Positions 42,531 through 60,941 of a stretch of DNA of 64,000 nucleotides are shown here, one piece after another. The stretch spans positions 248,001 through 312,000 of the forward strand of contig NZ_CP126158.1 in the NCBI RefSeq assembly GCF_030127145.1. The letters run 5' to 3'. A model generated the notes under the pieces. It did no database searches, was not told where the DNA came from, and saw only the letters and a program-made list of their open reading frames with translations. The position numbers were made by a program, and so were the translations under genes. Each line of letters starts with the position of its first letter. Within the stretch, counting starts at the first letter, position 1. Source of the stretch: Halobaculum halobium (GTDB lineage Archaea; Halobacteriota; Halobacteria; Halobacteriales; Haloferacaceae).

Positions 42531-43067
42531 CTACCATAGCTCCTCGGCTTCTGCGTCTAACTGCGTCCCTGCGTACTGCAGGTAATCGTTCGCGCTCGAT
42601 AGATCGGCGTGACCCATTGTCTGCCGGATATATTGTGGCGTCGCACCCCACGCCGCGATCAACGTCCCGTAGGTGTGCCGGAGGACGTGTGGCGTGATCT
42701 TCTTGCGGAGGTCGGTCTCGGCGGCCACACGCTTCACGCGGTTCGTGACGGTCTGACGAGTAGCGTCGTACGCTTCGTGATAGCTGAAGTAATCACGAAG
42801 CCGTCGCACTGTGCCGGGGTGCTTCAGCGGGATCGTCCGCGCGGAGTGCTCAGTCTTCGGCGACCACTCGCCTTCGGTGGGGGGCACCCGGAGTCGCTCG
42901 GATTGCCAGTCGATCCAGCCGTCGCGAAGGTGCGCGAGTTCGTCGGCTCGCATCCCGGTGTGAGCGAGCGTGTAGATCGCCACCTGGTGGTCGAGATTTC
43001 GCTCGTCGGCGGCCGCGAGCAACTTGTCGAGCTCGGATTCTGTGAGGGGTTCTCTTGTCCATGCCAT
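42531..43067 (-). CDS. Small tyrosine recombinase (catalytic core only)
   Basis: The 178-residue protein carries a full set of catalytic residues: Arg40 (AHTGMRADEL), Lys71 (SPKTEHSART), His127-x-x-Arg130 (PHVLRH), His153 (MGHADLSS) and Tyr162 or Tyr165 (ANDYLQYAG). There is no N-terminal core-binding domain, so it is about half the size of the integrase at 18847. Such short recombinases occur on haloarchaeal plasmids and proviruses. It could act in resolution or inversion, or be the integrase of a second nested element. Confidence 0.85.
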   Translation of the reverse strand: MAWTREPLTESELDKLLAAADERNLDHQVAIYTLAHTGMRADELAHLRDGWIDWQSERLRVPPTEGEWSPKTEHSARTIPLKHPGTVRRLRDYFSYHEAYDATRQTVTNRVKRVAAETDLRKKITPHVLRHTYGTLIAAWGATPQYIRQTMGHADLSSANDYLQYAGTQLDAEAEELW

Positions 43068-43171
43068 AGCTGACAGTAAAACGAGTTTCCAGCGAGACCT
43101 AAATACGGCCCGTGTGGAGGGGGTCAGCGCGGTCGAGTTTGACAGTCCCCCGTCTCTGTAAAACCTCTCGC

Positions 43172-43429
43172 CTACCACGGACCGGTCCGCAGGCCGATAC
43201 CTATCGCCCCTGGAATCACTACGATCAGGACGGCTCCGGCACCACACTCAAGAACTGGAACTATACCAGAAATTCCGCTAATCTCTCCAGCCAACACTGT
43301 CGGACAACTATTGATCAGTGGAAGTGCTATCTTGTTACGTGCAGAGGCCACTGGGGCCCCTACCTCGGATACGGCCCAGAACGCCACCAATACCAACCCT
43401 ACACTCACGAAGGCAGTCTTGAATCGCAT
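43172..43429 (-). CDS. Small two-helix membrane protein
   Basis: The 85-residue protein has MRFKTAFVSVGLVLVAFWAV as a first hydrophobic helix or signal, and a second (CGAGAVLIVVIPGAIGIGL) near the C terminus. Two cysteines lie between or in the helices. No family is recognised. It may be an orphan of the recombinase-associated accessory cluster. Confidence 0.5.
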   Translation of the reverse strand: MRFKTAFVSVGLVLVAFWAVSEVGAPVASARNKIALPLINSCPTVLAGEISGISGIVPVLECGAGAVLIVVIPGAIGIGLRTGPW

Positions 43430-45699: not shown

Positions 45700-45956
45700 G
45701 CACGACGGCGGAGGAGCGCGTTCGGTTCCTCGGCGCGGTGATCGTCACGTCGATCGTCTCGCTGTCGTTCACGCTGTCGGTGCTGCTCGACGGCGGACTA
45801 CTCGCGGCAGCGGCGTCGCTGCTGCCGCTCCCGCTGTGGGCGTACATCGCGTGGGAGGAACTCGGCACCGCGGCGCCGACGCGCGACCGCGAGACCGAGC
45901 TCGCAACGGACGGAGGAACACGGACTCGCCGCCCGGAAAGCGGCGATGACACATGA
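45696..45956 (+). CDS. Two-helix membrane protein of the particle operon
   Basis: The 86-residue protein has two hydrophobic helices (FLGAVIVTSIVSLSFTLSVL and LLAAAASLLPLPLWAYIAW) and a charged tail (TRDRETELATDGGTRTRR). GTG start by GTGA overlap; its stop overlaps the ATG of the large exported protein. Confidence 0.65.
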   Translation: MSTTAEERVRFLGAVIVTSIVSLSFTLSVLLDGGLLAAAASLLPLPLWAYIAWEELGTAAPTRDRETELATDGGTRTRRPESGDDT

Positions 45957-47473
45957 ACTTCAACGAGCTATTCAGCAAGCGAGCGGCGGCGCTCGCGATG
46001 GTGGTACTGCTCGTCGCCAGTTCGGGCGGAGCGCTCGCCCAGGCGGCGATGACGATCAACGATCCGACGCAGATCAACTACGAGAGCGACGCGGTGCAGA
46101 ACCCCGGCGTCGAGGTGACACTCGAAAAGGACACCCACCAAGTCGGGTGGGACACCGTCGAGTACGAGGGTGACGACGGTGAGGTGAAGACACCGGACGC
46201 CCGCGTGAACGACTCGGAGGCGAACCCGGTCGGGATCACCGCTACCGACATCGCGTTCGAGGATGCGGGTGCGTTCCCGCGGTACAACGAGAGCCACTCG
46301 GCGCTGCACGCCGACGAGTGGTCGACCGAGACGGGCGTCTCCGTCTCGAACACGACGACCGCGCCCGACGTGGACGCGCTGAACGTCGCGACGAACGGCT
46401 CGTTCTTTGACGGTAACTCGGCGACGGCGACGTACACACTCTCGGAGTCAATCGACTCTGACGAGAACAAGCGCTCGCTGCAGCTGTTCGCCGACGTGAA
46501 CACGCTGGACGCCGGCGCACACGTCGAGGTTCGGATCGTCGACGAGGACGGCGACTACAAGACCGCCGTGATCGACCCGGACAACTCGACGGACGCCGAC
46601 CACGTCTTGGCGAACGCGACTGGTGAGGGCTACGTCCTGCAGCACCAGCTCGGCAAGATGGACACGACGACCGTCGGCGGCTCCGACGGCGAGTTCGACA
46701 ACATGGCGTCCGTCGAGATCGTCGTGATGGACGGCGACGCCGACGTGTCGCTGTCGGTGATCAACGCCGAGAAGCTCGGCGAGTACACGCTCGGCGAGCA
46801 ACGCGTCGACACCGACGACGACGGCGAGAAAGACGACACGCGGACGATCACCGAGCCGAGCGGGACCTACTGGGTGACCGGCTACGACACGCTCGGCGAG
46901 ACGTTCTCGAACGCGACGATCGCAGGGTCAGAGGTCGCGATGATCTTCGACGCGTCGTCGCTCGAAACCGAGACGGACGCCCGGATCGAGTTCACCGACG
47001 ACCGCGGTGACTCGGGCGTGTACCCCGGCTTCGAGTTCATCGTCGACGTGTACTACCGGCTCAGCTTGCCGAGCGCGTACGACGTGAGCTACTCGAACGC
47101 AGAGCTGACCGACACGGTTGAGCGACCGTCGAGCCGGTACGAGACCGTCGAGTACGCGGAGGGCGTCTCCGACACCGAGTTCGAGGAGATCTCCTCGTGG
47201 TCGAGCGTGAAGTCGAGCTACGACTCGCAGGGCGACGAGGTGACGCTCGACTCGACGATCCAGCCGGGCCAGGAACTCGCGATCCACTACGAGTACCTCG
47301 TCACGGCCTCCGAGAAGGACACGTTCCCGGCGTCGAGCGGCGCGGCTCCCGGGCAGTACGCTGGTGAATCGGGCGGGTGGCTCTCGAACATCCCAATCGT
47401 TGGACAGTGGCTTGGTGGCATCGCGGCCGCCGTCGGCGCGCTGTTCGGCGGCAAGTGGGCGATGGGGAAGTAA
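45953..47473 (+). CDS. Exported, membrane-anchored protein; spike-like candidate
   Basis: The 506-residue protein starts with signal peptide MNFNELFSKRAAALAMVVLL then VASSGGALAQA. About 440 residues of acidic beta-rich ectodomain follow, with several Asn-X-Ser/Thr sites, and a C-terminal hydrophobic segment (NIPIVGQWLGGIAAAVGALF) ends in a short basic tail. Size, signal and C-terminal anchor match the plan of spike proteins of haloarchaeal pleomorphic viruses; I cannot show homology. The ectodomain ends with EYLVTASEKDTFPASSG before the anchor. Confidence 0.75.
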   Translation: MNFNELFSKRAAALAMVVLLVASSGGALAQAAMTINDPTQINYESDAVQNPGVEVTLEKDTHQVGWDTVEYEGDDGEVKTPDARVNDSEANPVGITATDIAFEDAGAFPRYNESHSALHADEWSTETGVSVSNTTTAPDVDALNVATNGSFFDGNSATATYTLSESIDSDENKRSLQLFADVNTLDAGAHVEVRIVDEDGDYKTAVIDPDNSTDADHVLANATGEGYVLQHQLGKMDTTTVGGSDGEFDNMASVEIVVMDGDADVSLSVINAEKLGEYTLGEQRVDTDDDGEKDDTRTITEPSGTYWVTGYDTLGETFSNATIAGSEVAMIFDASSLETETDARIEFTDDRGDSGVYPGFEFIVDVYYRLSLPSAYDVSYSNAELTDTVERPSSRYETVEYAEGVSDTEFEEISSWSSVKSSYDSQGDEVTLDSTIQPGQELAIHYEYLVTASEKDTFPASSGAAPGQYAGESGGWLSNIPIVGQWLGGIAAAVGALFGGKWAMGK

Positions 47474-47474
47474 G

Positions 47475-47891
47475 ATGTCGCAGGCAGAGCCGCTCACGCT
47501 GATCGAGAAGGCGCGCGGCCGAGGACTCACCGGGATCGCCAAACAGGGCATCGGCGGGTGGCTGCTGGCGCTGTCGTCGAGTCTCATCCTCGGCGTGCAG
47601 GCGCTCACTCAAGTCCTAATCGTCCCGATCGACCTGTTCGTCAACATCACCGAGGCGGCGGGAGAGGCGTTCATCGTCTCCCCGCTCGGCGTGGTGATCG
47701 CCGGAAGCGAGGCGTCCGCGCAGTCGATCGCGGAGTTCGAGTTCCTCGGGCTGCCGATCGGCACGGTCGTCGTGCTGGGGTCGTTCGCGATCGTGGCGCT
47801 GTACCTCCGGCAGCCGTGGTCCTCGGACTTCGTTCCGGGGACGTTCACCGACTCGCTGGGGACCGGGACCGAGGAGGAGGGCGAAGCGTAG
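47475..47891 (+). CDS. Membrane protein of the particle operon
   Basis: The 138-residue protein has about three hydrophobic stretches (GGWLLALSSSLILGVQAL, VLIVPIDLFVNITEAAGEAF, IGTVVVLGSFAIVALYL) and an acidic C terminus. It begins two bases after the preceding stop. The sequence is Gly/Ala/Val-rich like the other small membrane proteins of the operon, pointing to a membrane-embedded complex. Confidence 0.7.
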   Translation: MSQAEPLTLIEKARGRGLTGIAKQGIGGWLLALSSSLILGVQALTQVLIVPIDLFVNITEAAGEAFIVSPLGVVIAGSEASAQSIAEFEFLGLPIGTVVVLGSFAIVALYLRQPWSSDFVPGTFTDSLGTGTEEEGEA

Positions 47892-47892
47892 C

Positions 47893-47955
47893 ATGACCGC
47901 CAGCCGCCCGCAGCAGTCTCGAACTGGAGATCTCGTGAGGTGGCAGCGTGGCTGA
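47893..47955 (+). CDS. Twenty-residue basic micro-ORF
   Basis: Reads MTASRPQQSRTGDLVRWQRG then stop, overlapping the next GTG start at 47948. It fills an otherwise empty 56-base gap in an operon that has almost none. A similar micro-ORF occurs at 49145. It could be a translational coupling device rather than a functional peptide. Confidence 0.35.
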   Translation: MTASRPQQSRTGDLVRWQRG

Positions 47956-48322
47956 ACGGGATCAGGGCGGCGGCGGTGGCGCTATCAACGTCGGCGTACT
48001 CGCCGATCGGTTCCTCACCGAGAACAACAAGATCGCGGTCGGCGCGCTCGGCGGTGGCCTCGTGGGAGGCGGGCTGTACGCACTGCTGCAGGGGCTCGTC
48101 GGCGTCGTCCTGAGCGGCGGGGCGGCGATCGATCTGCTGCTACGGGGCTACGCGGAGGCGCTCACGTCGAACGTGAACGCGCTGCTCGACGGCCTGCAGG
48201 CCGAGGTCGCGGACGCATGGGATCCGTTCCAAGCGGGCGCGTTCTCGCTGCCGCTGAACCTGATCGTCGTGCTCGCCGGCATGGGAGTGCTCGCACTCGC
48301 AGTGTGGTGGTACCGTGGCTGA
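47948..48322 (+). CDS. Glycine-rich membrane protein of the particle operon
   Basis: The 124-residue protein has N-terminal GGGGGAINVGVLADRFL, hydrophobic helices at about residues 30-60 (IAVGALGGGLVGGGLYALLQ) and at the C terminus (LPLNLIVVLAGMGVLALAVW), with an amphipathic stretch between them. GTG start. Confidence 0.7.
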   Translation: MAERDQGGGGGAINVGVLADRFLTENNKIAVGALGGGLVGGGLYALLQGLVGVVLSGGAAIDLLLRGYAEALTSNVNALLDGLQAEVADAWDPFQAGAFSLPLNLIVVLAGMGVLALAVWWYRG

Positions 48323-48836
48323 CGAGCTCGGGATCTCGGACACGGAGGGAAGCGCCGGCTCGACGAGTTCGGCCGGCTCGGAGAGTGGCGGCGGCGGGCC
48401 GGTGCTGCCGTCGTGGCTCCCGAGCTCTCGGTCGGGGTTCCTGGCGCTCGTCCGGGGAGCTGTGTTCCGGCCGATCGTGAAGACGATCCTCGGGATCGCT
48501 GCGACGGCGTACGGAGCGGTCCTCACGCTGTTTCAGGGCTCCGAGCCGGGCTTTTCGCGCGAGGAGTCCGTGTGGGGACTCGCCGATCTGCTCCCCGCGC
48601 TGGCGTCGTACGGGCTCGACCTGATCGAGTTCGTGTACGGCGCCTACGTCGACGTGGGCTTGTTCATCGCGGGAGCGATCACGCCGTCGGTGTCGGGCCC
48701 TGTCGACGGGCTGATCCTGCTGGTGGTGTTCGCCGTCGAGGCGGTCGTCACCGTGTTCGTCCTGATCCGCGGGACGAGAGCGATCGCGGACGCGATCCCC
48801 GGCGTGTCCGGGGTCGAGACGTTCCTATTCGGGTGA
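48315..48836 (+). CDS. Multi-helix membrane protein of the particle operon
   Basis: The 173-residue protein has a disordered Ser/Gly-rich N terminus and about four hydrophobic segments (FRPIVKTILGIAATAYGAVL, WGLADLLPALASYGLDLI, VYGAYVDVGLFIAGAI, GLILLVVFAVEAVVTVFVLI). GTG start overlaps the preceding gene by eight bases. The helix count and small size resemble structural membrane proteins of lipid-enveloped archaeal viruses; function by analogy only. Confidence 0.7.
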   Translation: MADELGISDTEGSAGSTSSAGSESGGGGPVLPSWLPSSRSGFLALVRGAVFRPIVKTILGIAATAYGAVLTLFQGSEPGFSREESVWGLADLLPALASYGLDLIEFVYGAYVDVGLFIAGAITPSVSGPVDGLILLVVFAVEAVVTVFVLIRGTRAIADAIPGVSGVETFLFG

Positions 48837-48842
48837 TCACAG

Positions 48843-49148
48843 ATGGGAAAACTCAGAGACAAGACGACGGAGGTACTCACACACCCGGTTTCGGCGGCAG
48901 CGAGTGCGTTTGCCGCCCTCGGGAGCGTCCTGAACCCGGAGTTCGTGTTCGCGCTCGGCTCGGCGCTGTACGCTGCGGCGCCGAGCCTGTTTACGGGCTC
49001 GTCGATCGCGGCGTTCACGCTCCCCCAGGTGTTCCCGGGGCTATCGATTCTCAAGCCGGTGTTCCTCGCGATCGTCGCGATCGCGGGGCCGCTGTACCTC
49101 CTGCGGCTGGTGAACAGTTCGACGGATACGATCGAGGACGAACTATGA
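48843..49148 (+). CDS. Small membrane protein of the particle operon
   Basis: The 101-residue protein has charged leader MGKLRDKTTEVLTHPVSAAA and hydrophobic stretches across residues 18-85 (FALGSALYAAAPSLFTG, PVFLAIVAIAGPLYLLRLV). Its stop overlaps the ATG of the next micro-ORF (ATGA). Confidence 0.65.
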   Translation: MGKLRDKTTEVLTHPVSAAASAFAALGSVLNPEFVFALGSALYAAAPSLFTGSSIAAFTLPQVFPGLSILKPVFLAIVAIAGPLYLLRLVNSSTDTIEDEL

Positions 49149-49201
49149 CACGAGACACACAGAGCAAGACGAATCGCCGGCGGGCAGGGGGTGGTCGGTA
49201 G
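49145..49201 (+). CDS. Eighteen-residue basic micro-ORF
   Basis: Reads MTRDTQSKTNRRRAGGGR then TAG, which overlaps the following GTG (TAGTG). Together with the micro-ORF at 47893 it suggests that short basic peptides are used to keep ribosomes coupled along the operon, or that they bind nucleic acid. Confidence 0.4.
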   Translation: MTRDTQSKTNRRRAGGGR

Positions 49202-49632
49202 TGCCGACCGAGATCCTCTCGCTGCTCGCGGAGAACTGGATGTGGGTGATCGGCGCGACGTTGTTCGCGCTGATCGCGTACTGGGCTGTCGACGAGGGGC
49301 GAGACGCCGACGACCGCGTCGAGACGGTCGAACGCGTCACCGATCGCGCGGAGAACGCGACGGGCGGGTTCCTCTCGGGGGCCCGAGCGCTGCTGCTCGG
49401 CTTCGCCGGGATCGGCGTAACCGTCGCGGGCGAGCTGCTCGGGCTCGCAACAGCGCTGAACGAGCTACTCGGTGGGGTGCCGTACCTCGTCGGGATGCTC
49501 CTGTACGGCGGACTGAGCTTCGCAGGCGTCTATCTCGACGTGCGGCCGGCGACGCTGGGAATCGCGTTCCTGATCGTGTTCATGACGGTGTCGATGATGT
49601 GGATCGGGAACCGTCAGGGGAGGGCGGCGTAG
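49201..49632 (+). CDS. Four-helix membrane protein of the particle operon
   Basis: The 143-residue protein has hydrophobic segments at about residues 12-30 (NWMWVIGATLFALIAYW), 58-85, 92-112 and 115-135, and a charged loop (DEGRDADDRVETVERVTDRA) after the first helix. GTG start. Four helices in a 140-residue protein is the plan of VP3-like proteins of pleolipoviruses, an analogy only. Confidence 0.65.
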   Translation: MPTEILSLLAENWMWVIGATLFALIAYWAVDEGRDADDRVETVERVTDRAENATGGFLSGARALLLGFAGIGVTVAGELLGLATALNELLGGVPYLVGMLLYGGLSFAGVYLDVRPATLGIAFLIVFMTVSMMWIGNRQGRAA

Positions 49633-49633
49633 C

Positions 49634-49741
49634 ATGGTCGCCGCCGAGATCGTCACCGGCGCGTTCGAGGTACTCGCAACCGGCGCGAGAGTGACCGTCG
49701 AGGCGATCTCGGCGGGATGTTTCGCGGGGGTACTCGCGTGA
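49634..49741 (+). CDS. Short hydrophobic peptide of the particle operon
   Basis: Thirty-five residues (MVAAEIVTGAFEVLATGARV, then TVEAISAGCFAGVLA). The stop overlaps the next GTG (GTGA). Its continuous coupling to both neighbours supports translation. Confidence 0.45.
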   Translation: MVAAEIVTGAFEVLATGARVTVEAISAGCFAGVLA

Positions 49742-51438
49742 AGCGAGCACTCCTCGCGACGCTGCTCGTCGTGTCGCTCGTGGTGCCGCTCGTCGCCGTC
49801 GGCGGGGCCGTCGCCGACGGTCACGACGGAGCGGCCAACGAGACCGACACGGACAGCGAGGCGTACACGTACGAGGACCTGAAGCGCGGCGGGACGACCT
49901 ACGAGAGCGCGCCGTCCTCGATGCGGTTCCTCGGCGACTACAGCAGCGCGACCGTCCGCGTGTTCCCGGTCGGACCGGGTGAGTCGGGCTGGCACTACCT
50001 CGAACGCGGCGAGGTGGTCAACTCGAATTCGGTGCAGCTACGGACGGTTCGACTCGCTCCCGTGGACGAGCTCGACCGGACGCTGAACGTTACCGTCGTC
50101 GCGTGGCAAAAGGGCACCCGGACGGTCGAGCGCGGGAACTCGACCGTCGAGGAGACGGTTGCGACGAACGTGACCGTGCGGCGCCAGCAGATCGAGGCGG
50201 GGCGCGGCTACGACACGGCGAACGTCTCGCTCGGTCAGCACTACGACTCGACCTACCAGATCACGATGTGGGTCGAGGAGAACCCCGACTCGCGCTGGCG
50301 GTTCGCGCATCGCTCGGTCGAGACGACGCGGGCGCTGCCGTTCGTTCCGACGTGGGGCGGCTACTGGTCGTTCACCACGACGAACGTCCTGCTGTGGATC
50401 GTCGTGCTGACCGGCGTCACCGTGGTCGGCGCCGTGGGCTCAGTCGAGATCACCGGCAAGGGCCCGGGGCTCGGGCTCGTCACGTGGGCGATCATCATCG
50501 CGATCGGCTCGGCAACGGTCGGCATCGGCGCGTTCGTGTGGACGGCGTCGTTGCTGTCGGCGGCGCCGCCGGTGATCGCGTTCGTAATCGCGGCGGTGAT
50601 CGGGATCGTCGTGCTCGAAACGACCGAGAAGGGCGTGTTCAGCGTCGCGCTCATGCGGTTGTTCACTGAGGAGAAGAAGAACCCACGCGGCGACTTCGCG
50701 AAGGAAGCACGAGAGGCCGAGTTCGAGAAGGTGACGCTGGCGAACACGGCGACCGGGACGAAGGTGATCAAGCCGGGGCTACGGCCGTGGCTCGCCCGGT
50801 TGCGGACCGGCGGCACGGAGTTCGTCGGGCTCGAACGCATCGAGTTCGAGTTCGACCTCGGGAGCCCGGAGGTGCCGTTCACCGAGAGCGTCGCGGATAA
50901 ACTGATCTTCGTCGACGAGGACGGCGTCGGAGACGACGGTGAGCTCGTGACCGCTTCGCCGTCGACGGTCGAGTGGGACCTCCCGCTGCGCGTCGAGACC
51001 GACGACGGCGTTCGAACGAACTGGACGGCGGTGTTCTCGCTGGCGTTCCACGCTCTCGTACCGTTCGCGCTGGCGTACCAGACGATGAGCTATCTGGGAG
51101 TCGGCGGCGGGCGCGTCGTCGGGGCGTTGTTCGCCGCTGTCGTCGTGTACGCGGTTCACACCCGGGTCACCGAGGGCCGTGCAGAGTTCATGCCCGCGGT
51201 TGGCATGACACAAGACGCGGTCGCGACAGCGATGCACCTGCAGTCGGAGGTCGACGACTACCAGACGCTCGAAAAGGCGCTCTCCGCGCTCGTCGACGAA
51301 CGGAACTCGACGGACGAGTTGATCGAGACGCTGCAGGAACTCGACGCGGAGGCGGCCGTGCGAGACGCATCGCGACGTGACACGAGCCCGGGATCGTTCG
51401 CCGAGGGGACGAACCCGACTGCGGAGGCTGACGACTGA
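49738..51438 (+). CDS. Large exported/membrane protein of the particle operon
   Basis: The 566-residue protein starts with signal peptide MKRALLATLLVVSLVVPLVA. An ectodomain of about 180 residues with many Asn-X-Ser/Thr sites follows, then a cluster of hydrophobic helices (about residues 220-305), a charged soluble domain (about 310-430), two further helices (about 435-480) and a cytoplasmic tail with coiled-coil character (DYQTLEKALSALVDERNS). It spans the membrane several times and has domains on both sides, which suits a protein linking an outer surface layer to the interior. No family is recognised. Confidence 0.7.
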   Translation: MKRALLATLLVVSLVVPLVAVGGAVADGHDGAANETDTDSEAYTYEDLKRGGTTYESAPSSMRFLGDYSSATVRVFPVGPGESGWHYLERGEVVNSNSVQLRTVRLAPVDELDRTLNVTVVAWQKGTRTVERGNSTVEETVATNVTVRRQQIEAGRGYDTANVSLGQHYDSTYQITMWVEENPDSRWRFAHRSVETTRALPFVPTWGGYWSFTTTNVLLWIVVLTGVTVVGAVGSVEITGKGPGLGLVTWAIIIAIGSATVGIGAFVWTASLLSAAPPVIAFVIAAVIGIVVLETTEKGVFSVALMRLFTEEKKNPRGDFAKEAREAEFEKVTLANTATGTKVIKPGLRPWLARLRTGGTEFVGLERIEFEFDLGSPEVPFTESVADKLIFVDEDGVGDDGELVTASPSTVEWDLPLRVETDDGVRTNWTAVFSLAFHALVPFALAYQTMSYLGVGGGRVVGALFAAVVVYAVHTRVTEGRAEFMPAVGMTQDAVATAMHLQSEVDDYQTLEKALSALVDERNSTDELIETLQELDAEAAVRDASRRDTSPGSFAEGTNPTAEADD

Positions 51439-52352
51439 TGTCGTCGGATCTCCCGTCGCTCGGCTCGACGATCGAGAACACCGACGAGACGGCCACGGCG
51501 GCCGTCGACGGTCTCGGCGACGCGCTCGCACAGCTCGACGGGGTTCGAGCGGGCGAGGTCGACGAGTCGGTGCTCCCGGAGTTCGAGCGCGAGGACACGT
51601 CCGACGAGATCGTCTCGACGCGGCCGGCGCTGCAGGCGCTCAACGAGCAGCAACTCGACGCGCTGCGGGAGTTCAGAGACGAGGGCGTCGAGCATCGCCC
51701 GGCGCTGCTCCGGTGGCTGCTGCGGCTGCAGTACCGGACGCTGGGGCGGCTCCCGGACTACTGGTACTTCCACATCGCGACGGACCCGACGGCGCTTGCG
51801 TGTGTCCTCACGGGGCCCACGCGGGGCGTCTACAACCGCCGCGGCGAGACGAACGTCACGCCGAAAGAGGCGTGGGGGACGCGCCGGCGACTCGTCGCGC
51901 GGTACCTCCGACCGGCGTGTCGCGAGGCGTTCCGGTTCCTGCGGCCGAAGGCGACGGAGTACCTCGACGACGAGTACGACCCGGAGAAGATGGCAGCGCT
52001 GGCGATGCGGCCGGCGCTCGACGAGCACTACCAGCGTCAGGAGGAGGCACTTGCCGAGTTCCATGAGGGGTTCGAGTCGGCGGACGTGCTCGACGCGTGG
52101 CTGCAGCGGCTCGACGCGGCGACGTTCGGGACGATGAAAGCGGTCCACCCGGAGTTCGACTACGAGCTGACGACGACCCGGCTGCAGCCGGAGCTGTCGA
52201 CGAGTTCTGAGCAGATGTACGTCGAGGCACGCGAGCGGATCATCGCGCGGTTCCTGCTGCCGGCGTGCAACGTGGCCGTCCGGGAGCTGGCGGAGCGAGC
52301 GGGCGAATCGGACGATCAGGAAACCACCGCGAGCAGCGGGGTCGAACTATGA
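51438..52352 (+). CDS. Soluble helical protein upstream of the particle ATPase
   Basis: The 304-residue protein has no membrane helices. It is rich in Arg, Glu and Leu, with helices such as EQQLDALREFRDEGVEHRPA and RRLVARYLRPACREAFRFLR and another conserved-looking segment (IIARFLLPACNVAVRELAE). The two similar RYLRPAC/RFLLPAC segments suggest an internal duplication. It shares one base with the previous gene and four with the ATPase gene, so it may be the ATPase's partner. Confidence 0.65.
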   Translation: MSSDLPSLGSTIENTDETATAAVDGLGDALAQLDGVRAGEVDESVLPEFEREDTSDEIVSTRPALQALNEQQLDALREFRDEGVEHRPALLRWLLRLQYRTLGRLPDYWYFHIATDPTALACVLTGPTRGVYNRRGETNVTPKEAWGTRRRLVARYLRPACREAFRFLRPKATEYLDDEYDPEKMAALAMRPALDEHYQRQEEALAEFHEGFESADVLDAWLQRLDAATFGTMKAVHPEFDYELTTTRLQPELSTSSEQMYVEARERIIARFLLPACNVAVRELAERAGESDDQETTASSGVEL

Positions 52353-53647
52353 GTAAGACACAACAGACCCACGAGACGACACGAGCAGAGATCGTCGAGG
52401 CGTTCGAAGCGGAGACGCGGACCTCGACGTACCGCGGCACGAGCTACGGGATCACCGACGCCGCGTCGATGCGACGCGATCACGGGCTCCGACCGTTCTG
52501 GAAACAACTGTACGAGACGACCGACGCGACGACGATCGACACAACCGCGGACGCGGTGGCGTACCCGGGCGTCGTTCCGGACTGTCTGATCCACCTGCGG
52601 CGCGACGAGCGAGAGCTGCTCAAGCGCGACGACCCGGACCTGTCGAACCTCCCGAAAGCACGGCGGAACGTGCTGCGGTGGCTCGCCGTCGACGACGACG
52701 CGCTTGCCAAGATGTCGATCGGCGGGACGGACGTACTGGCGACGGGACAGCCGGGCTCGGGGAAGTCGACGCTCGGGAACGACCTGGCGCGGCAGGTCCT
52801 CGAACTCAACCCGGAGGAGGCGTTCGTGTGGCGCGGCACGCCGTCGCGAGCGGAGTGGACGCCGCTCGCACCGTGGACGAAGCTCCTGCTCCCGTCGAGC
52901 GTCGAGTCGAGCGTACGGGTGCAGCCGCCCGCACACGCGTCGGGCTCGTTCACGCTCGACCCCGAGAACGTGGCACGCGAGGTCGTGTACTACGACGACG
53001 TGTACGACCTGCTCGGAGAGTTCGAGGCCGGCACATTCCACGTCGTCTATCCGGATCCAGCGGGGCGCGGTATCGCGGACGTGTTTCAGCGCTCGCCACG
53101 GACGGACCACTTCGAGTGGGTCAACGACGCGAGCATGGCCGACGAGAGCGAGTACGACACGCCGACGCCGCTGTCACACTGGTGGTTCGGGTTCGTGGTC
53201 GCGCTCGTCGACGAGGCGGGGCCGGAGGCGCTCTCGCTGCTGCTCGACGAGGTGGGCGACCTCCTGCCACAGGCCGCCCGCAGCGGTCCGAAGAACCACA
53301 ACTGGTACGAGAAGATCGAGGCGTTCCGCGACGCGCTCGTCGACGCGCGCAAGAACAACAAGACGCTGTTCATGATGGGCCACAACGAGGCCGACGTTCA
53401 CGATCTCGTCCGGCGGAAGCTACGCTGGCGGGTGACGATGCCCGGGTGGCCGAACCCGACGGCTGGCGACAGCGTTGTCGGGTTCAAATCGGCCCCGATG
53501 CACGAGCAGCACACGCAGTACATGACGGTGGGGCGGGGGCTGTGGTGGAACGCGCTGCACTACACGAAGTTCAGCTGGGGCGACCTCGCCAAGCCGACAG
53601 TCGCGAAGGTTGCTGTCGAGCTCGGCGGTCGGGGTGATCGTCGATGA
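52349..53647 (+). CDS. P-loop ATPase of the particle operon
   Basis: The 432-residue protein has Walker A TGQPGSGKST (about residues 132-141) and a Walker-B strand ALSLLLDEVGDLLPQ (about 290-305). A later segment, NNKTLFMMGHNEADVHD, fits a sensor strand ending in Asn/His. The order is compatible with the FtsK/HerA-like or VirB4-like packaging ATPases of enveloped archaeal viruses; no membrane helix is present. The C-terminal region (MPGWPNPTAGDSVVGFKSAP) has no recognised motif. It could drive DNA loading or particle assembly; inference from context. Confidence 0.8.
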   Translation: MSKTQQTHETTRAEIVEAFEAETRTSTYRGTSYGITDAASMRRDHGLRPFWKQLYETTDATTIDTTADAVAYPGVVPDCLIHLRRDERELLKRDDPDLSNLPKARRNVLRWLAVDDDALAKMSIGGTDVLATGQPGSGKSTLGNDLARQVLELNPEEAFVWRGTPSRAEWTPLAPWTKLLLPSSVESSVRVQPPAHASGSFTLDPENVAREVVYYDDVYDLLGEFEAGTFHVVYPDPAGRGIADVFQRSPRTDHFEWVNDASMADESEYDTPTPLSHWWFGFVVALVDEAGPEALSLLLDEVGDLLPQAARSGPKNHNWYEKIEAFRDALVDARKNNKTLFMMGHNEADVHDLVRRKLRWRVTMPGWPNPTAGDSVVGFKSAPMHEQHTQYMTVGRGLWWNALHYTKFSWGDLAKPTVAKVAVELGGRGDRR

Positions 53648-53829
53648 TCGACGGGGTCGATCGGCGCCAGCGAGCCGGAGCAGTCAGATATCTGACGCCA
53701 GACGTACGCGCGCGTAACGAATCGATTAGGACAACCCCCCGGGGGCGGGTGCGCGCCGTTGCTTCGAGCGCTCGCGTCGGGCCAACGCGTGAGCGGGCGA
53801 GCGCCTCGGAGGTGGTTGCTCGTGCGTGA
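53644..53829 (+). CDS. Small basic protein of the particle operon
   Basis: The 61-residue Arg/Ala-rich protein reads MIDGVDRRQRAGAVRYLTPD, then RNESIRTTPRGRVRAVASSA. Its start overlaps the ATPase stop and its end overlaps the GTG of the giant surface protein by eight bases. Its basic nature in an acidic proteome suggests nucleic acid binding, but low complexity also fits a coupling ORF. Confidence 0.45.
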   Translation: MIDGVDRRQRAGAVRYLTPDVRARNESIRTTPRGRVRAVASSARVGPTRERASASEVVARA

Positions 53830-56800
53830 TCGGACACGCCGCGCGTCGGCGATCGCGTTCGTCGCGCTGCTGCTCGTGTCGACGGTCGCGGTCGGCATCC
53901 CGCTGGCGAGCATGAACGCGGCGGCGGCTCCGTCAGGCATGGTCGCGCTCGACGGTTCGTCGATCACCGAGGAGGTACCGAGTGGCGAGTCGATCCCGGC
54001 GAACGCCTCGGAGTTCGAGGGGCGGATCTACTCGACCGAGCACGCGGAGTCGATGTCGCTGACGCTCACAACCGGCGGACACGCTGACGAGGTGATGAAC
54101 TCCGACGCGGTCCGCCTTGACGGCGAGGGCATGGTGCTGGTGCTCGCCGACGACGAGAACCACGGCGCTCGCGAGGTCGCGATCGAGGCGACGGTGCTCT
54201 CGAACTCGCTGGGGTACGTGCCGAAGTGGGCCGTCGGAACACACGAAGACGGCTCGACGTGGAAGCGGCCGGTCACGTACGAGGACGGTTACGTGCGGTT
54301 CGAGGTACCGCACTTCTCCTCGAACGCGGTGAGCTTCGAGTCGGAGGTCGAGATCACGGCGGACGCTGCAGTGAACGCGTCGGCGTTCGAGTACGATATC
54401 GCCGACGGCGGGCTCGACGCGGCCTCGAAGCCGACGGCGAACTGGACAGGCGTCACGAACACCGAGTGGGACAACGAGTCGGCGTCGGCAGTGGCGAACG
54501 GCGGCTCGGTGAGCGTGCCGGTCGCGGGCAACCTCGCGCCGACGGACGAAACGGTGACGTTCGGCGGCACGGAGACACTATTCGCCGAGACGCGCTCGGG
54601 GACGAGCGTCACTGAGGGCGACACGGCGACGATCTCGGTGAACGGCGACGCGGCACCGCGGAACGGCGAGGTGACGTTCTACGGGAGCGGCTCGTCGAAC
54701 TCACGGACGGTGTCGGTGACAGGTGCAAGCGACGGATCCACCAAAGCGTATGATGTCGGTGGTAATCTCGCGCCGACGGGCGAGTCGGTGACGTTCACCG
54801 GCGAGACACAAACGACCAACGGCGATCAGTCATGGTCTGGCGTCTCACTCGGTAACTCGGTATCTCTCTCGAATCCCGGCAATATCGAGCCGGCAGGACC
54901 GGGCAGTAACAACAATCCGACGGTAACGGTCACGCCTCAAGCAAGTAGCAAGCAAAACCCGAACGGCGGTCAGACGGCCTATACCGTCCCAACTATCGCG
55001 GATGGAACGAGCGCTCAGGTGGTCGTGAAGGAGACCGGCGGGACCGTCACACAAGTCGAGTTCTACATCAATTCCTTGTCCGGAAACCCGACGGCGGACA
55101 TCTACATCAATGGGAACGGGCTGGACCAGTCACTTCAGGACGGCACACAAGTCCGTGATAGCTATGCGATCTCGTCGGGTTGGAACACCCTATCGATCTC
55201 GTCGGTCGACACCGGGACGGGGCCGGTGACGATCGAGTTCGTCGACGACGGCGCGAACGGCGGAGATAGCGCCTCACTCGGTGGTGACTCAGGTGGCTCT
55301 GGATACGTCGAGTATAATGACGGTTCGTGGACGGATTCCGGACGGATTCCGGCGGTATCAGCGACCTACAAACTCGCAGAGAGTGTCTCGGTCGATGGCG
55401 TATCCTACGGGACCGTCACCTCCTCGGAAACGCAAACAATCGATATAACGGCGAGTCAGGAGTCGCTCTCGACTTCGGGCTCCGGAACTGTCGATATATC
55501 GATCGACAAGACCGATCGAACGGCGACGGAGGATCCGAGTGTGGACCTCGACGACGACGGCACCGCCGAGGCCTCCGTCTCGGGTATCCTTACCGACGGC
55601 GAGACAGCGACCGTCTCCTCTTTCGACGTGTCGACGGGCTCACAGACGACGACGACCAACACCAACGCCGGATCTACCGTCAGCTGGGACTTCGACTTCA
55701 CCGAGGAGTCGGGAGTCAAGGATCCGACCGTCGACATCGACGACGACGGCCAGATCGACGCGAGCTACTCGGGCGTGCTTCGCGACGGCGAGACCGCGAC
55801 GGAACCGGTGTCGCTGTCGACCGGGTCGAAGACGCTCGACTTCGGCGGCAGTGGCTCGACGTACGACTGGGAGCTGGCGTACGACCGGGTCGAGCACACG
55901 GAGAACCCGAGCGTCGACGTGGACAACGACGGCACTGCAGAGGCGACGTACACGGGCACGCTCGGGCCGTCGGAGTCGGTGACGAAGGCGGTCAACCTCT
56001 CGACTTCGACCTCGTCGGTGGACGTGTCGACGAGCTCGTCGACGACCGTCGACGTGACCGTGTCGTTCAAAGAGCGGACCGGGACCGACGGCGCCGTGCT
56101 CGTCGTGAACGGCAACGAGACACTCCCGACCGGCACGCTGGCGGACGGCGAGCAGGCGAACGCGACGCTGTCGACGGACGTGCTCCGCGAGGGCTCGAAC
56201 GACGTGCGGGTCGAACTCGCGGATGGGTTCCTGTCGACGGATGCGCCGGAAATGCAGGTCGGACTCGTCTACTCGCATGACACGCTCGACCGCAAGACGG
56301 TGGTGTACTCGGCGGAAAAGTGGTCGGAGCGATACAACGTGAGTAAGACGTTCGCCTCCGAGCGCGCCGAGGCGTCGATGAACATCACGTTCGAGCAGAA
56401 CGTCGTCGAGATCCGGACTGTCGAGTACCGCGTGAACGAGTCGGGCTCGTGGACGGCGCTCGGGCCGGACTACTACACGCTCGACGGGAACGATATCAGC
56501 GTCGACCTCGACGACGCCTACGGCGGAGAGATCCCCGCGAACACGACGATCGAGGTGCGCACGAACGGCTCGCGAGTACAGACGAATGGGATGCAGATCT
56601 CGGTCACCGAGGCGACGACGACGGGCGACACTCTCGACTCGGAGATCTCGGTCGACACGGTGACGACGGGCGAACCGTCGTGGATCGGCGTCGGGCCGAC
56701 CTCGGACGGCTCGCGTGTCCACTACAGCTACGACGAGAGCTACGGCTCGGCGTCGGACTACACGGTGATCGAGGCGAACGGCGACCAACAACTGCACCTG

Positions 56801-57727
56801 CCGAACGCGGAACCGGGCGACACGCTTCGGGTGACGCACCTGCCGGTGTCGGCGTCGCCGGCGAAGGGCGACGTGAAGCTGACCGTCGAGGACAGCGGCG
56901 GCGACCCGGAAATCGGCGTGTATCCCGGCCCGGACGGTGAGGGCGACGCCGTCGAGTTCGGCTACTACGACACCACAGACGGCACGAAGTACCTGCTGTA
57001 CTCCGAGACGAGCGGGATCGTCCGAGACTCGGCGACGGCGAACTCGCCGGTGTTCCTCACCGACGACGACTCGAAAGAACTGCTCGTGATCCGGACGGAG
57101 AACACGAGCACGTCGAGCACCGACGACTCGTCGAGTGACTCAGGGCCGTTCGTGCCGGCCGGACAGTTCGGCGAGGAGTCCAACGGAGGCGTCTCGCTGG
57201 GGATGCTGGCACTGATCGGCGTCCCGCTGCTGGGGCTCGCCGGCGCGGTGGTCGTGTACCGGCGGCGCGGTGGCGACACGACGGAGGATGCGTCGACGCC
57301 GGTTCGCGTGGCCTCGACGGTCGGGCGCGCGGTCTCGACGGGCGTGCGGACGCTCTCGGGAGAACCGCGCGTGGTCGCCGCGCTGTCGGTCTTGGGCGGC
57401 ATCGCGCTCGTGCTGACGGGTGCGGTGTCGCTCCCGCCGGGGACGGGCCTACTGCTCGTGATCGCCGGCCTGCCGCTGGTGACGTTCCTCGTACTGCGGC
57501 GTCTCGACTCGTGGTCGCCGCTCGTGTTCGGGACAGTCTCGACGGTCGCGGTCGTGCTCGGGCTGCAGCTGCTCGGCGCCGACCCGGTCGGACAGGTTCT
57601 CGACGCACTCGGGCCGGGCGTGCTCATCCTCGCGCTCGGGCTGTTGGTGCTGGCGTACCAGGGGATTCAGGCGGCGCGGGCGCCGGAGGAGGTGAACGAG
57701 ATCAACATCGGGGACGGCGACGCATGA
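53822..57727 (+). CDS. Giant surface protein of the particle operon
   Basis: The 1301-residue protein starts at GTG 53822, where MRDRTRRASAIAFVALLLVS is a standard signal peptide. Residues about 230-360 contain two related beta-rich units (NLAPTDETVTFGG, NLAPTGESVTFTG). Three repeats of about 60 residues follow at about 570-740, each with a DPSVDLDDDG-type acidic turn that could bind calcium. A large mixed region follows, then a Ser/Thr/Asp-rich linker and about five hydrophobic helices from residue 1120 on (LGMLALIGVPLLGLAGAVVV, VVAALSVLGGIALVLTGAV, VLILALGLLVLAYQGIQAA). It is probably the main exposed protein of the particle or of producing cells. Confidence 0.75.
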   Translation: MRDRTRRASAIAFVALLLVSTVAVGIPLASMNAAAAPSGMVALDGSSITEEVPSGESIPANASEFEGRIYSTEHAESMSLTLTTGGHADEVMNSDAVRLDGEGMVLVLADDENHGAREVAIEATVLSNSLGYVPKWAVGTHEDGSTWKRPVTYEDGYVRFEVPHFSSNAVSFESEVEITADAAVNASAFEYDIADGGLDAASKPTANWTGVTNTEWDNESASAVANGGSVSVPVAGNLAPTDETVTFGGTETLFAETRSGTSVTEGDTATISVNGDAAPRNGEVTFYGSGSSNSRTVSVTGASDGSTKAYDVGGNLAPTGESVTFTGETQTTNGDQSWSGVSLGNSVSLSNPGNIEPAGPGSNNNPTVTVTPQASSKQNPNGGQTAYTVPTIADGTSAQVVVKETGGTVTQVEFYINSLSGNPTADIYINGNGLDQSLQDGTQVRDSYAISSGWNTLSISSVDTGTGPVTIEFVDDGANGGDSASLGGDSGGSGYVEYNDGSWTDSGRIPAVSATYKLAESVSVDGVSYGTVTSSETQTIDITASQESLSTSGSGTVDISIDKTDRTATEDPSVDLDDDGTAEASVSGILTDGETATVSSFDVSTGSQTTTTNTNAGSTVSWDFDFTEESGVKDPTVDIDDDGQIDASYSGVLRDGETATEPVSLSTGSKTLDFGGSGSTYDWELAYDRVEHTENPSVDVDNDGTAEATYTGTLGPSESVTKAVNLSTSTSSVDVSTSSSTTVDVTVSFKERTGTDGAVLVVNGNETLPTGTLADGEQANATLSTDVLREGSNDVRVELADGFLSTDAPEMQVGLVYSHDTLDRKTVVYSAEKWSERYNVSKTFASERAEASMNITFEQNVVEIRTVEYRVNESGSWTALGPDYYTLDGNDISVDLDDAYGGEIPANTTIEVRTNGSRVQTNGMQISVTEATTTGDTLDSEISVDTVTTGEPSWIGVGPTSDGSRVHYSYDESYGSASDYTVIEANGDQQLHLPNAEPGDTLRVTHLPVSASPAKGDVKLTVEDSGGDPEIGVYPGPDGEGDAVEFGYYDTTDGTKYLLYSETSGIVRDSATANSPVFLTDDDSKELLVIRTENTSTSSTDDSSSDSGPFVPAGQFGEESNGGVSLGMLALIGVPLLGLAGAVVVYRRRGGDTTEDASTPVRVASTVGRAVSTGVRTLSGEPRVVAALSVLGGIALVLTGAVSLPPGTGLLLVIAGLPLVTFLVLRRLDSWSPLVFGTVSTVAVVLGLQLLGADPVGQVLDALGPGVLILALGLLVLAYQGIQAARAPEEVNEINIGDGDA

Positions 57728-58017
57728 GCCTCCTCGAACCCCTGCTCCGGTTCCTCGGCGTGCCGGGGACGATCGTCACCGCGGCGGTGATCGCGTTCTC
57801 GGCGTATCACGCGAAGCACCTGCTCGACGTGTTCACCCGCGTCGGTGTGTGGGTCAGGATCGGCGGGGCGGCGGTCGTGCTCTTGGTGATCTTCGCCGTG
57901 CTCGTGCCGGGGTTCACGCTCTCGCTCGACGTAGGGCGGTTGCTCGGGTTCGGTGGCGACCTCGTCGACGGCGTGCTCGATCTGGCGCGGCTGGTGCCGT
58001 GGGGTGAGTTAGTGTGA
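57724..58017 (+). CDS. Two-helix membrane protein of the particle operon
   Basis: The 97-residue protein has hydrophobic segments PGTIVTAAVIAFSAYHA and VRIGGAAVVLLVIFAVLV and an amphipathic C terminus (GGDLVDGVLDLARLVPWG). ATGA overlap with the giant protein and GTGA overlap with the next gene. Confidence 0.65.
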   Translation: MSLLEPLLRFLGVPGTIVTAAVIAFSAYHAKHLLDVFTRVGVWVRIGGAAVVLLVIFAVLVPGFTLSLDVGRLLGFGGDLVDGVLDLARLVPWGELV

Positions 58018-58418
58018 ACGAACTCCTCGTCGCGTCCGTAGTAGTGTTCCTGGCACTCGGCGTGTTCGAGGAGTACCGCGACCAATTACCGACGCGCGTC
58101 CGAGTAGCGCTTGGCGACCTCGACCTCGACGACCCGCGGACGGTCGAGGAGATCCGTGAAGCGTACCTCCGTGACCACATCGGCGACCGGGAGTTCGAGC
58201 GGCGGCTCGGCGTCGCGATCGACGAGGACGCCGCGCAGCTGCGACGGGTCGCGGAGAGCGTCTCGGGGATCGGCCCGGATACGTCGTGGTCGCTCGTCGC
58301 GCAGGGCTACCGGAGCGAGCGACAGGTACGCGACGCGAGCGTCGACCAACTCGCTGACGATGTACCGAACGTCGGCGAGCAGCGTGCCGGGCAACTTCTG
58401 CGGACTGTCGACGAATAG
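58014..58418 (+). CDS. Membrane-anchored helix-hairpin-helix protein, last gene of the particle operon
   Basis: The 134-residue protein has a short N-terminal hydrophobic helix (LLVASVVVFLALGVFEE). A soluble part includes a short domain (DDPRTVEEIREAYLRDHIGD REFERRL) of the SHOCT-like kind, then two helix-hairpin-helix elements (VSGIGPDTSWSLVAQGYRS and VPNVGEQRAGQLLRTV). HhH pairs bind DNA backbone non-specifically. One membrane anchor plus an HhH domain would tether DNA to the inner face of a membrane. Confidence 0.7.
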   Translation: MNELLVASVVVFLALGVFEEYRDQLPTRVRVALGDLDLDDPRTVEEIREAYLRDHIGDREFERRLGVAIDEDAAQLRRVAESVSGIGPDTSWSLVAQGYRSERQVRDASVDQLADDVPNVGEQRAGQLLRTVDE

Positions 58419-58721: not shown

Positions 58722-60941
58722 TCAGCCGGGTTTGAAGTAGTCCCACCCGGTCGGCAGCAGGTCGAGCAGCGTCTCGTCGGCGTACGTCACCTCCTCACCG
58801 TTCCGCAGGCGCCCGCGAACGCGGAACGTCCGCGAGAACAACCCGAGCGTGTCGCCGCCCTGGTCGTTCCGGAAGGCGATCGCGCCCTCGCGGATCAGCC
58901 GCCGCAGCTCCGACCGGTCGGCACACTCCCACCCGAGGACGATCTCGTCTTTCTCGCCGTCCGCACGGACCTCCTCAACCCAGTTGTCGCGCCAGCGGAG
59001 CCACGCGGAGCCCTCGCCGGGCGTCGCGGCGACGTTCTCGGCGCGCACGAGGTTGTCGGCGGCGCCTTCGAGATCGTGCTCGACGACGGCGTCGACGGCA
59101 TCCAGCCGCTTCACGACCTGTTGGGCGAGATACTGCGAGCGCAGCTGCACGTCGGCGTAGCTCGTCTGTACCAACTCACCGAGCTGGCGGAGCGCACGCC
59201 GGACGGTCGAGACGGCCTTCCCGATCTCGTCGGCGATGTCCGCTGGTGAGAGTTGCCCGCCGTCGGTGACGAGCGTCCGGAGCGTGTCGACGTGCGTGTC
59301 GTTCAGGTTCCCGAGGAAGGCCCACCGCTCGACGGCGTTCTTCTGCTCGCTCTCGATCCGCGGCGTTGGGTCGTCGACGAGCTTGCGGAACCGCGAGGCG
59401 CCGACGGGCTCGAAGTAGTCGTCGGCGACGTACGGCCCCTCCGTGGGCCGCAGCGGGATGTCCGCCCACTGCAGCACGTTCAGCAGCGTCTCGTCGAGCT
59501 CGCGTTCGAGCGAGTCGAGATCCTCCCAGTACACGGTGTCAGCCATGACCGAGTGCTGTAGCGAGACACCGACTTTCGGATGCTGCAGGGCGCCGGTGGC
59601 CGCGTCGGGGTTCCGCCCGTAGTAGTGCTTGATCTCTTTCGCGAGATCGTGCCCGCCGACGAGGTGGCCGGCACGCATCGACCCGATCGTCGCCGTGTGG
59701 TACGAGCCGGCCCGCTCGCGATCGTCGCGGACGGACTTCGCGTACCCCTCGCGGTCACCCGCCAGCAGCATACTGACGCGGTGGATCGGGCCGTCGATCG
59801 CGATCAGCTTCCCCGTCTCGCCGTCCTCGGCGCGGATGTACAGCTCGGCGTCGATGATGTTCGAGGAGCCGTGGATCTTCTCCCGGTCGAACGACTCGGG
59901 ATCCACGTACGTCGGGCCGTTCCACTTGACGCCCTGCTGCTCTTTGATCGCCTCGATCGCTCGCCGCAGCAGGTCCGGGTAGCGACTGAACTCGATGTTC
60001 GTGCCGTCGAACTCTGCGTCGAACCCGAGCAGGTCGGTGGGGTTGATCGAGACAGTGTCACCGGCATTCGTCTCGGCATCCTGGTCGGGCCACCGCGGCC
60101 GGAGTCGGAAGTACGCCCGCGCCCGGCCGTCGTCTTTCGCGTCGCTGTAGGAGTCGTACGCGGCGGGGAACACGTAGACGCGAGGCTCTTTCACCGTGTC
60201 GAGCCGCCAGTCGATGTCGGCGGCGACGTGCTCGTCGGGCGGGTTGATGTTCGAGTCGGAGTACCGCAGCGCGACGGCCCACTCCTCGACGACCTCGTCG
60301 CCGTCAAGATCGTCGTCGGCCTGCCGCTCTGCGACGCGCCGGGTGTCGGCTGGCAGCTCGTCGGCCGTGACCTCGAAGCCGCTGAATAGTTCACCGTCGT
60401 GTTCCTTCCGGGCGGAGTCGAGCGCGTAGTACCAGTTGAACGGTTTGCGCCGCTCGCTCGTGTCGTACTTGACGTACGCGCCGAACTCGTGGTACCACGG
60501 CTGCACGGCGCGCCGCTGCGCGAACGGATCGAGGTCGCCCTCGACGCCCTGCTCGCCGTCCGGTGTGGATCGCTGGCGCTGGCGCCGCTTGTACCAAGCG
60601 CGGAACGGCTGACAGTCGTAGTAGTGATCGTCGGGGTTTGCTCCGGACGCGGCGGTGTGTGGCTCGTGGCAGAACCGGCAGGTTGCGACGGGCCGCTGTG
60701 CGCACGACTCGCCGTGTGTTCGCGCCTGCTCGTTCGTCTTGTGGTGACTCCGACAGTGCCGACAGACAGCGACGAAGCCCTCCCGCTGTGGGCCGCTCTC
60801 GCGGTTGTCACGGGCGTCCGGCCCGTCGGTGTCCTCGGCGTCGCGGGGCTGGCTCGCGTCCGTCTCGGCTGACAGGAGCGCGTCGAGGTGCTCGTCGGCG
60901 TCGTCGCGGATCTCCTCGTCGTCCGCGTCGGGGCCGATCAC
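58722..60941 (-). CDS. Large zinc-finger/winged-helix protein (DUF7845-like)
   Basis: The 739-residue protein has an acidic N terminus of about 55 residues. A Cys/His cluster follows at about 60-125 (CRHCRSHHKTNEQARTHGESC, CRFCHEPHT, DDHYYDC), enough for two or three zinc sites. A region of about 400 residues starts PWYHEFGAYVKYDTS and resembles the haloarchaeal DUF7845 domain. A winged helix follows (LSPADIADEIGKAVSTVRRA, about residue 565), then a C-terminal beta domain. Such proteins are common near haloarchaeal proviral genes. It could initiate replication or regulate late genes; neither can be decided here. It overlaps the upstream gene by four bases. Confidence 0.7.
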   Translation of the reverse strand: MIGPDADDEEIRDDADEHLDALLSAETDASQPRDAEDTDGPDARDNRESGPQREGFVAVCRHCRSHHKTNEQARTHGESCAQRPVATCRFCHEPHTAASGANPDDHYYDCQPFRAWYKRRQRQRSTPDGEQGVEGDLDPFAQRRAVQPWYHEFGAYVKYDTSERRKPFNWYYALDSARKEHDGELFSGFEVTADELPADTRRVAERQADDDLDGDEVVEEWAVALRYSDSNINPPDEHVAADIDWRLDTVKEPRVYVFPAAYDSYSDAKDDGRARAYFRLRPRWPDQDAETNAGDTVSINPTDLLGFDAEFDGTNIEFSRYPDLLRRAIEAIKEQQGVKWNGPTYVDPESFDREKIHGSSNIIDAELYIRAEDGETGKLIAIDGPIHRVSMLLAGDREGYAKSVRDDRERAGSYHTATIGSMRAGHLVGGHDLAKEIKHYYGRNPDAATGALQHPKVGVSLQHSVMADTVYWEDLDSLERELDETLLNVLQWADIPLRPTEGPYVADDYFEPVGASRFRKLVDDPTPRIESEQKNAVERWAFLGNLNDTHVDTLRTLVTDGGQLSPADIADEIGKAVSTVRRALRQLGELVQTSYADVQLRSQYLAQQVVKRLDAVDAVVEHDLEGAADNLVRAENVAATPGEGSAWLRWRDNWVEEVRADGEKDEIVLGWECADRSELRRLIREGAIAFRNDQGGDTLGLFSRTFRVRGRLRNGEEVTYADETLLDLLPTGWDYFKPG

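Follow-up and report, generated by a model that had tools for sequence, protein, structure and literature searches.

The locus described here raises the question of what a membrane-anchored protein with a DNA-binding type of domain does at the end of an operon from a likely mobile element. The window, that is, the whole 64,000-nucleotide stretch of Halobaculum halobium DNA that was analysed (contig NZ_CP126158.1, positions 248,001 to 312,000), carries the gene for this protein behind a long series of genes on the same strand. A first-pass annotation had described the product as a protein with one N-terminal membrane helix and two helix-hairpin-helix (HhH) elements, and had proposed that in a particle without a capsid it could hold the genome against the inner membrane face. 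The genes concerned were as follows.

42531 to 43247, minus strand: tyrosine integrase, upstream of the operon and aligned also in the sister locus L027
45953 to 57727, plus strand: core operon, genes A to J (open reading frames, Pfam scan, related loci)
57724 to 58017, plus strand: gene K, a 97-aa protein with two transmembrane (TM) helices, whose stop overlaps the start of the HhH gene by 4 bases
58014 to 58418, plus strand: HhH gene, a 134-aa TM-SHOCT-like-(HhH)2 protein (open reading frame, Pfam scan, alignment, AlphaFold model)

The HhH open reading frame spans exactly these coordinates and has a GTG start; start codons of family members were assigned by hand. Its position as the last gene of the operon was confirmed, since the run of plus-strand genes (45953-58418) ends with it and the following gene (58722-60941) lies on the minus strand.

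Gene A of the operon encodes a secreted protein with a hydrophobic C-terminal end, genes B to F small TM proteins, G a 573-aa TM protein, H a soluble protein, I (52349-53647) an ATPase and J (53759-57727) a large secreted surface protein. Genes A, G, H, I and J co-occurred in about forty loci of the window's family, and by inspection about 30 of the 34 related operons had a small TM gene like K after J. The operon as a whole (A to K; window 45953-58017) was seen again in L027, L062-L101, L103, L145-L153 and L209. The ATPase was present in 62 of the 392 genomes of the order and in 38 of the 170 genomes of the window's family, and had no match among phages or viral contigs. The operon proteins that were scanned against Pfam, PHROGs and NCBIfam gave no match to a capsid protein. 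The integrase, the operon and the downstream genes could be aligned between the window and genome G016. The operon looks like an undescribed haloarchaeal element family and the window element is likely to be mobile; that it forms particles is an inference.

Several features were recorded in the DNA around the operon. An AT-richer stretch on its 5' side holds a family B DNA polymerase gene (34158-36365) as well as the integrase gene, and on a Halosegnis plasmid the same operon adjoins a type B polymerase (L103 23529-24897). Further upstream, at 28631-29668, a weak SMODS-like nucleotidyltransferase match (E=0.0013, below the cut-off) marks a possible defence gene. A search for an attachment site returned, as the sole exact repeat of at least 16 bases between both sides, an unrelated 17-mer. 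A tRNA-Ala gene just beyond the window end (genome 312141-312212), which follows a minus-strand run encoding a DUF7845 regulator, a DUF6884 protein and a C5 methyltransferase, is a possible boundary of the element; no long second copy of it was found.

Within the HhH protein, the following parts were distinguished.

58023 to 58067, plus strand: single N-terminal membrane helix, core aa 4-18, N-terminus predicted outside (hydropathy, flank charges)
58140 to 58211, plus strand: SHOCT-like helix pair, aa 43-66, with E60, E62, R63 and R64 invariant (alignment A1)
58215 to 58301, plus strand: HhH element 1, helix aa 68-82, hairpin SGIGPD, helix aa 88-96 (Pfam, AlphaFold)
58317 to 58334, plus strand: connector helix, aa 102-107 (AlphaFold)
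58341 to 58412, plus strand: HhH element 2, helix aa 110-116, hairpin PNVG, helix aa 121-133 (Pfam, AlphaFold)

The hydrophobic stretch at aa 4-18 was also present in full-length relatives, and the Pfam family HHH_5 (PF14520) was found at aa 81-130 above its cut-off (E=9.7e-8, with a score of 32.8 bits where the gathering score is 27). Both observations upheld the one-helix, two-HhH description. The SHOCT-like helix pair at about aa 43-66 is an addition to that description and gives the order TM helix, SHOCT-like helix pair, (HhH)2. In an alignment of 14 relatives (A1), HHH_5 was listed for all 14, HHH_2 for 13, SHOCT (PF09851) for four (best E-value 7.2e-5) and the SHOCT-like DUF1707 for six; neither PF09851 nor DUF1707 was listed for the window protein alone, in which the SHOCT-like part was assigned through A1. 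Invariant positions in A1 include I56 and the four residues listed above in the SHOCT-like part, together with D70 and G121.

AlphaFold modelling of the HhH part only (69 aa, 4 sequences; mean pLDDT 79.9, pTM 0.61) gave five helices, including the connector, in the canonical (HhH)2 order. The full-length model (three sequences) was poor (pLDDT 58.9, pTM 0.31). In Foldseek comparisons, in which every E-value was above 0.001, the HhH model matched proteins expected for this fold: the C-terminal half of UvrC (TM-score 0.80, rmsd 1.3), ERCC1 (0.74), RuvA (0.69-0.74), NusA and the N-domains of RadA/Rad51. The HhH geometry was retained in a structural model. A profile search of PDB sequences matched DNA ligase, ribosomal protein L32e, Hef, XPF, DisA and UvrC, with ComEA (8dfk_A, E=0.009) as the last and marginal match. 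Some of the matched proteins bind DNA and others bind proteins or RNA, so the fold would be compatible with either kind of ligand.

Relatives of the HhH protein were sought in genomes, plasmids and viruses. At 1e-8 the protein was matched in eight of the 170 genomes of the window's family. The A1 profile at the same threshold matched 389 of the 392 genomes of the order through generic HhH proteins, so that only matches at E≤1e-27 were used for genome counts; these placed the HhH family in 30 of the 392. In the plasmid collection, 11 records matched the window protein at 0.01 and 18 matched the N. halobius copy at 1e-3. No relatives were found in viral contigs, and the phage collection held no match to the window protein at 0.01. 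The HhH protein of HRDV1 had weak matches to 13 bacteriophage records of that collection, none of them from an archaeal virus. Genome contigs yielded no relatives with the window protein as the query, and seven loci, two of them full length, with alignment A2.

The gene neighbourhoods of 33 distinct full-length haloarchaeal members were matched against reference proteins from the three module types, and 25 of the members belonged to or adjoined a module from one of three classes of element that are unrelated to each other. Eight were in the operon type of the window (the window, L027, L145, L149, L150, L151, L153 and L159, the last on the assumption of a circular contig). Fourteen were in or next to pR1SE-like modules (L015, L017, L020, L021, L022, L023, L030, L139, L143, L144, L146, L148, L152 and L154; a circular contig was likewise assumed for L143). 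Three were beside pleolipovirus genes (L016, L158 and L162), L158 being classed from one protein, the ATPase. Four of the remaining members had a clamp-like gene in their cluster but no genes with predicted membrane helices (L014, L031, L142 and L147), and four were in other contexts (L024, L029, L141 and L155). Left out of the tally were duplicate plasmids (L136, L137, L138 and L140), degenerate, split or truncated copies (L025, L026, L028, which is frameshifted, L156, L161 and L163-L168), two variants whose hydrophobic N-terminus differs (L157 and L160) and a weak blastp match that the family HMM did not confirm (L100, E=3e-5).

The TM-SHOCT-HhH genes of the L014-type cluster (L014 15815-21105) form a clade of their own, and the genomes or plasmids of all four members also hold a pR1SE-type ORF25. 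The 260-aa protein of this cluster had no Pfam match and appears clamp-like from a reading of its sequence. On the replicons of L014 (pR1SE2), L031, L141 and L155, ORF25 lies tens of kilobases from the HhH gene.

The arrangement at the modules varied. The HhH gene overlaps or is coupled to the preceding two-TM gene in L027 and a 10-TM gene in L015, and in HRDV1 it shares 4 bases with the homologue of HRPV-9 p21. Its place in L152 is between ORF24 and ORF25, the HerA-like gene, which it overlaps; the L030 copy runs on the other strand at a distance of about 3.1 kb from ORF25. A divergent second cluster was present in L015, L139, L143, L144 and L154.

As a control, 20 regions from the opposite side of these replicons were scored. 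None contained the operon type of the window or pleolipovirus genes; six contained pR1SE-type proteins (one as a lone protease match), and at least five of these six were from element-bearing plasmids themselves. Across the 392 genomes, with kinship ignored, the HhH family was found in 14 of the 24 genomes with ORF25 compared to 16 of the 368 without it (Fisher p 1e-11), and in 10 of the 62 with the operon ATPase compared to 20 of the 330 without it (Fisher 0.011). Ten of the 14 plasmid records with ORF25 also carried an HhH gene, which in six was downstream of ORF25, in the same orientation and no more than 10 kb away. The family tree required nine changes of module label, compared to 17.9 in shuffles, and lineages therefore stay with their own module type.

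The orientation of the protein was examined by comparing the flank before the helix with the ten residues after it in the 33 full-length members. Summed over all members, the preceding flank contained 2 K/R and 41 D/E residues and the ten following residues 49 K/R; K/R residues were more numerous after the helix than before it in 28 members, equal in five and fewer in none. Because of this excess and the positive-inside rule, an N-out/C-in topology is predicted, in which the HhH end would face the cytoplasm or the vesicle lumen. The inward C-terminal domain assumed in the first-pass annotation agrees with this prediction, which applies a rule that may be less sure in haloarchaea, where proteins are acidic. 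The last 72 residues have a net charge of -4 in the window protein and a median of -7 across members, and are net acidic in all members but one, where they are neutral. By a simple motif count that is off by a few residues in some rows, 32 of the 33 members have at least one hairpin that is followed by a K/R residue within six positions.

The HhH gene was found to be optional, not essential. It was present in only 10 of the 62 genomes with the operon ATPase, in eight of them adjacent to it, and in the 38 ATPase genomes of the window's family it lay alongside only in G000, G016 and G103, its frame being broken in G103. No HhH homologue was found in pR1SE (L018), or in HRPV-9 (L135) and the other archaeal viruses of the phage collection; pR1SE and HRPV-9 both make particles. 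Two elements that are about 92% identical differ in this respect: the gene is present in L149 and lost in L209, where 1.37 kb (L209 12696-14062 against L149 13952-14299) replaces most of it. The replacement DNA contains an opposite-strand open reading frame of 313 aa, which appears kinase-like from its sequence, and genes A to J and the two-TM gene are intact. A role as an essential genome holder was rejected, since there are particle-forming relatives without the gene and L209 has lost it.

The gene is also portable. In genome G013, a copy with a C-terminal part about 80% identical to that of the window, and with window-like DNA behind it, follows a HerA-like/10-TM module unrelated to the window operon. 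About 7 kb of transporter-like genes separate the two parts of this copy (L026 8494-8709 and 15830-16198). Between the window and L027, the HhH gene was the least conserved of 12 genes (48% compared to 54-87%).

The reading that we favour, tentatively and at somewhat less than an even chance, is that the HhH protein is an optional, portable DNA recruiter that faces the cytoplasm at the budding membrane. The N-terminal helix would anchor the protein, N-out and C-in, in the membrane patch where the vesicle of the element will form, the SHOCT-like pair may act as a spacer or bind a partner, and the (HhH)2 domain would bind the double-stranded DNA of the element, whatever its sequence, on the side of the membrane that faces the cytoplasm and, after budding, the lumen. 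The protein could thereby raise the odds that the genome is at the membrane while particles are assembled or loaded by the ATPase-containing module. The analysis shows the gene, its domains, a predicted topology and the association with the modules; we infer the DNA binding, the presence in particles and the recruiting role. A link between membrane and DNA is plausible because 25 of the 33 members are within or next to modules from three classes of element that are unrelated to each other; recurrence with modules that are unrelated in sequence suggests a shared partner, for which DNA and the membrane are the obvious candidates. The link proposed at first thus stands in part: the models and flank charges point neither to a loss of HhH geometry nor to an outward C-terminal domain, and the position at the end of modules in three capsid-less classes fits it, but the protein is not a general genome holder, given that pR1SE, HRPV-9, most related operons and L209 are without the gene.

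Competing explanations retain weight because the domain is net acidic, the L014-type contexts exist and the gene is dispensable. Against a recruiter, (HhH)2 domains can bind proteins, as the NusA match illustrates, and the last 72 residues are acidic; the four L014-type members lie among genes without a predicted membrane helix, four more members are in other contexts, and the gene is the least conserved of the 12 between the window and L027. One rival is an intracellular membrane anchor for replication or partition of the element in the donor, without a role in particle loading, that would work in the manner of phi29 p16.7. The general plan is the same, p16.7 being a membrane protein that binds DNA and draws it to the membrane (PMC4974454). 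The L014-type gene follows a clamp-like gene with no membrane genes, and in L017, L020, L022 and L023 ORF25 and the HhH gene are separated by an MCM or Cdc46-like gene. In most members, however, the nearest recognisable module genes are structural or membrane genes rather than replication genes, and we consider such an anchor unlikely. Ranked next, and also unlikely, is superinfection exclusion or defence, with a membrane-bound accessory protein catching or blocking the incoming DNA of related elements. An accessory and swappable gene would suit this function, as would the 1.37-kb stretch with an opposite-strand frame found in its place in L209, its divergence between the window and L027 and the window-like copy behind a different module in G013. 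The protein has no nuclease domain, however, and the family has stayed with a single type of module across long distances. Furthermore, the gene does not resemble a fast-evolving immunity gene, because the HhH proteins encoded by four other pR1SE-like plasmids share 44-53% identity with that of N. halobius, compared to 35-43% for their ORF25.

A protein scaffold, in which (HhH)2 would bind the ATPase of the module or another protein instead of DNA, is less probable again. The net acidic domain, the protein-binding NusA domains among the structural matches and the L152 arrangement, in which the gene directly overlaps that of the HerA-like ATPase, are in its favour, but basic residues occur near a hairpin in 32 of the 33 members, and DNA is a likelier common partner than any one protein where the partner modules are unrelated in sequence. 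A receptor for DNA uptake, with its binding domain on the outside of the cell, is very improbable. ComEA, the model for such a receptor, also has an N-terminal anchor, a middle domain and a C-terminal HhH pair, but its HhH pair is outside the membrane and is described as lacking a connector helix, and its middle part is an oligomerization domain (PMC9747964), whereas the window protein has a canonical connector in its model, a SHOCT-like middle part and flank charges that predict C-in. A ComEA-type uptake protein was rejected on topology and connector helix, and the profile match to ComEA was marginal.

A wider reading, which we regard as rather doubtful, would be that three or more unrelated kinds of haloarchaeal element without a capsid rely on one exchangeable adaptor between membrane and DNA, so that genome loading of vesicles has a common, sequence-independent step (a TM-SHOCT-HhH protein beside an ATPase keeps the DNA at the inner face of the membrane), and that the window operon family is a further vesicle-borne class. 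Pleolipovirus virions are described without nucleoproteins, and internal membrane proteins are only suggested to touch DNA (PMC5867852); recruitment of the plasmid by ORF25 is a prediction by the authors of PMC10818511. Because a protein with an anchor and a DNA-binding-type domain is common to three otherwise unrelated element classes, the entry of DNA into capsid-less archaeal particles becomes a step that can be approached by a single gene deletion in a genetically workable haloarchaeon. L149 and L209, near-identical natural elements with and without the HhH gene, provide a ready-made comparison.

Among known systems, vesicle-mediated transfer has been shown for pR1SE, and the pR1SE-like plasmid-vesicle plasmids (apHPVs) are described there as having no capsid (PMC10818511). 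A clear HhH homologue was found downstream of ORF25 in pHALXA03, pHTUR05, N. halobius, H. lacisalsi, Natrinema DC36 and Halosolutus. The window operon has no detectable protein in common with the apHPV core (ORF6-9 and ORF17-25), and its assignment as an apHPV was rejected because no reference protein matched a window open reading frame at 1e-5. The words helix-hairpin, hairpin and HhH are absent from the main text of PMC10818511, and a word search of PMC10599561 returned no mention of the HhH protein.

HRDV1 (L016, NC_025188) from Halorubrum sp. T3 was deposited as a plasmid and has the full HRPV-9-like structural gene order, with a spike protein 74% identical and the HhH gene at the end of the operon; it is apparently a pleolipovirus genome. 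Its replication protein belongs to PHROG 17376. Membership of the window operon in the Pleolipoviridae was rejected, as no HRPV-9 or HRDV1 reference protein matched the window at 1e-5; the operon ATPase gave only phrog_1979 at E=0.22.

In searches of open-licence PMC papers, no description of this HhH protein in such elements was found. The order TM, SHOCT, HHH had already been noted for two TM2-SHOCT-HHH proteins, which have two TM helices and PF12836, whereas the window protein has one TM helix and HHH_5; the passages on them give no link to mobile elements, and oligomerisation by SHOCT was unsupported in the authors' own test (PMC3581485). Unlike the window element, phi29 is a bacterial phage with a capsid, and the DNA-binding fold of its p16.7 protein is not known to be HhH. 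In common with the role proposed here, p16.7 is a membrane protein encoded by a virus, and it binds DNA and brings it to the membrane (PMC4974454).
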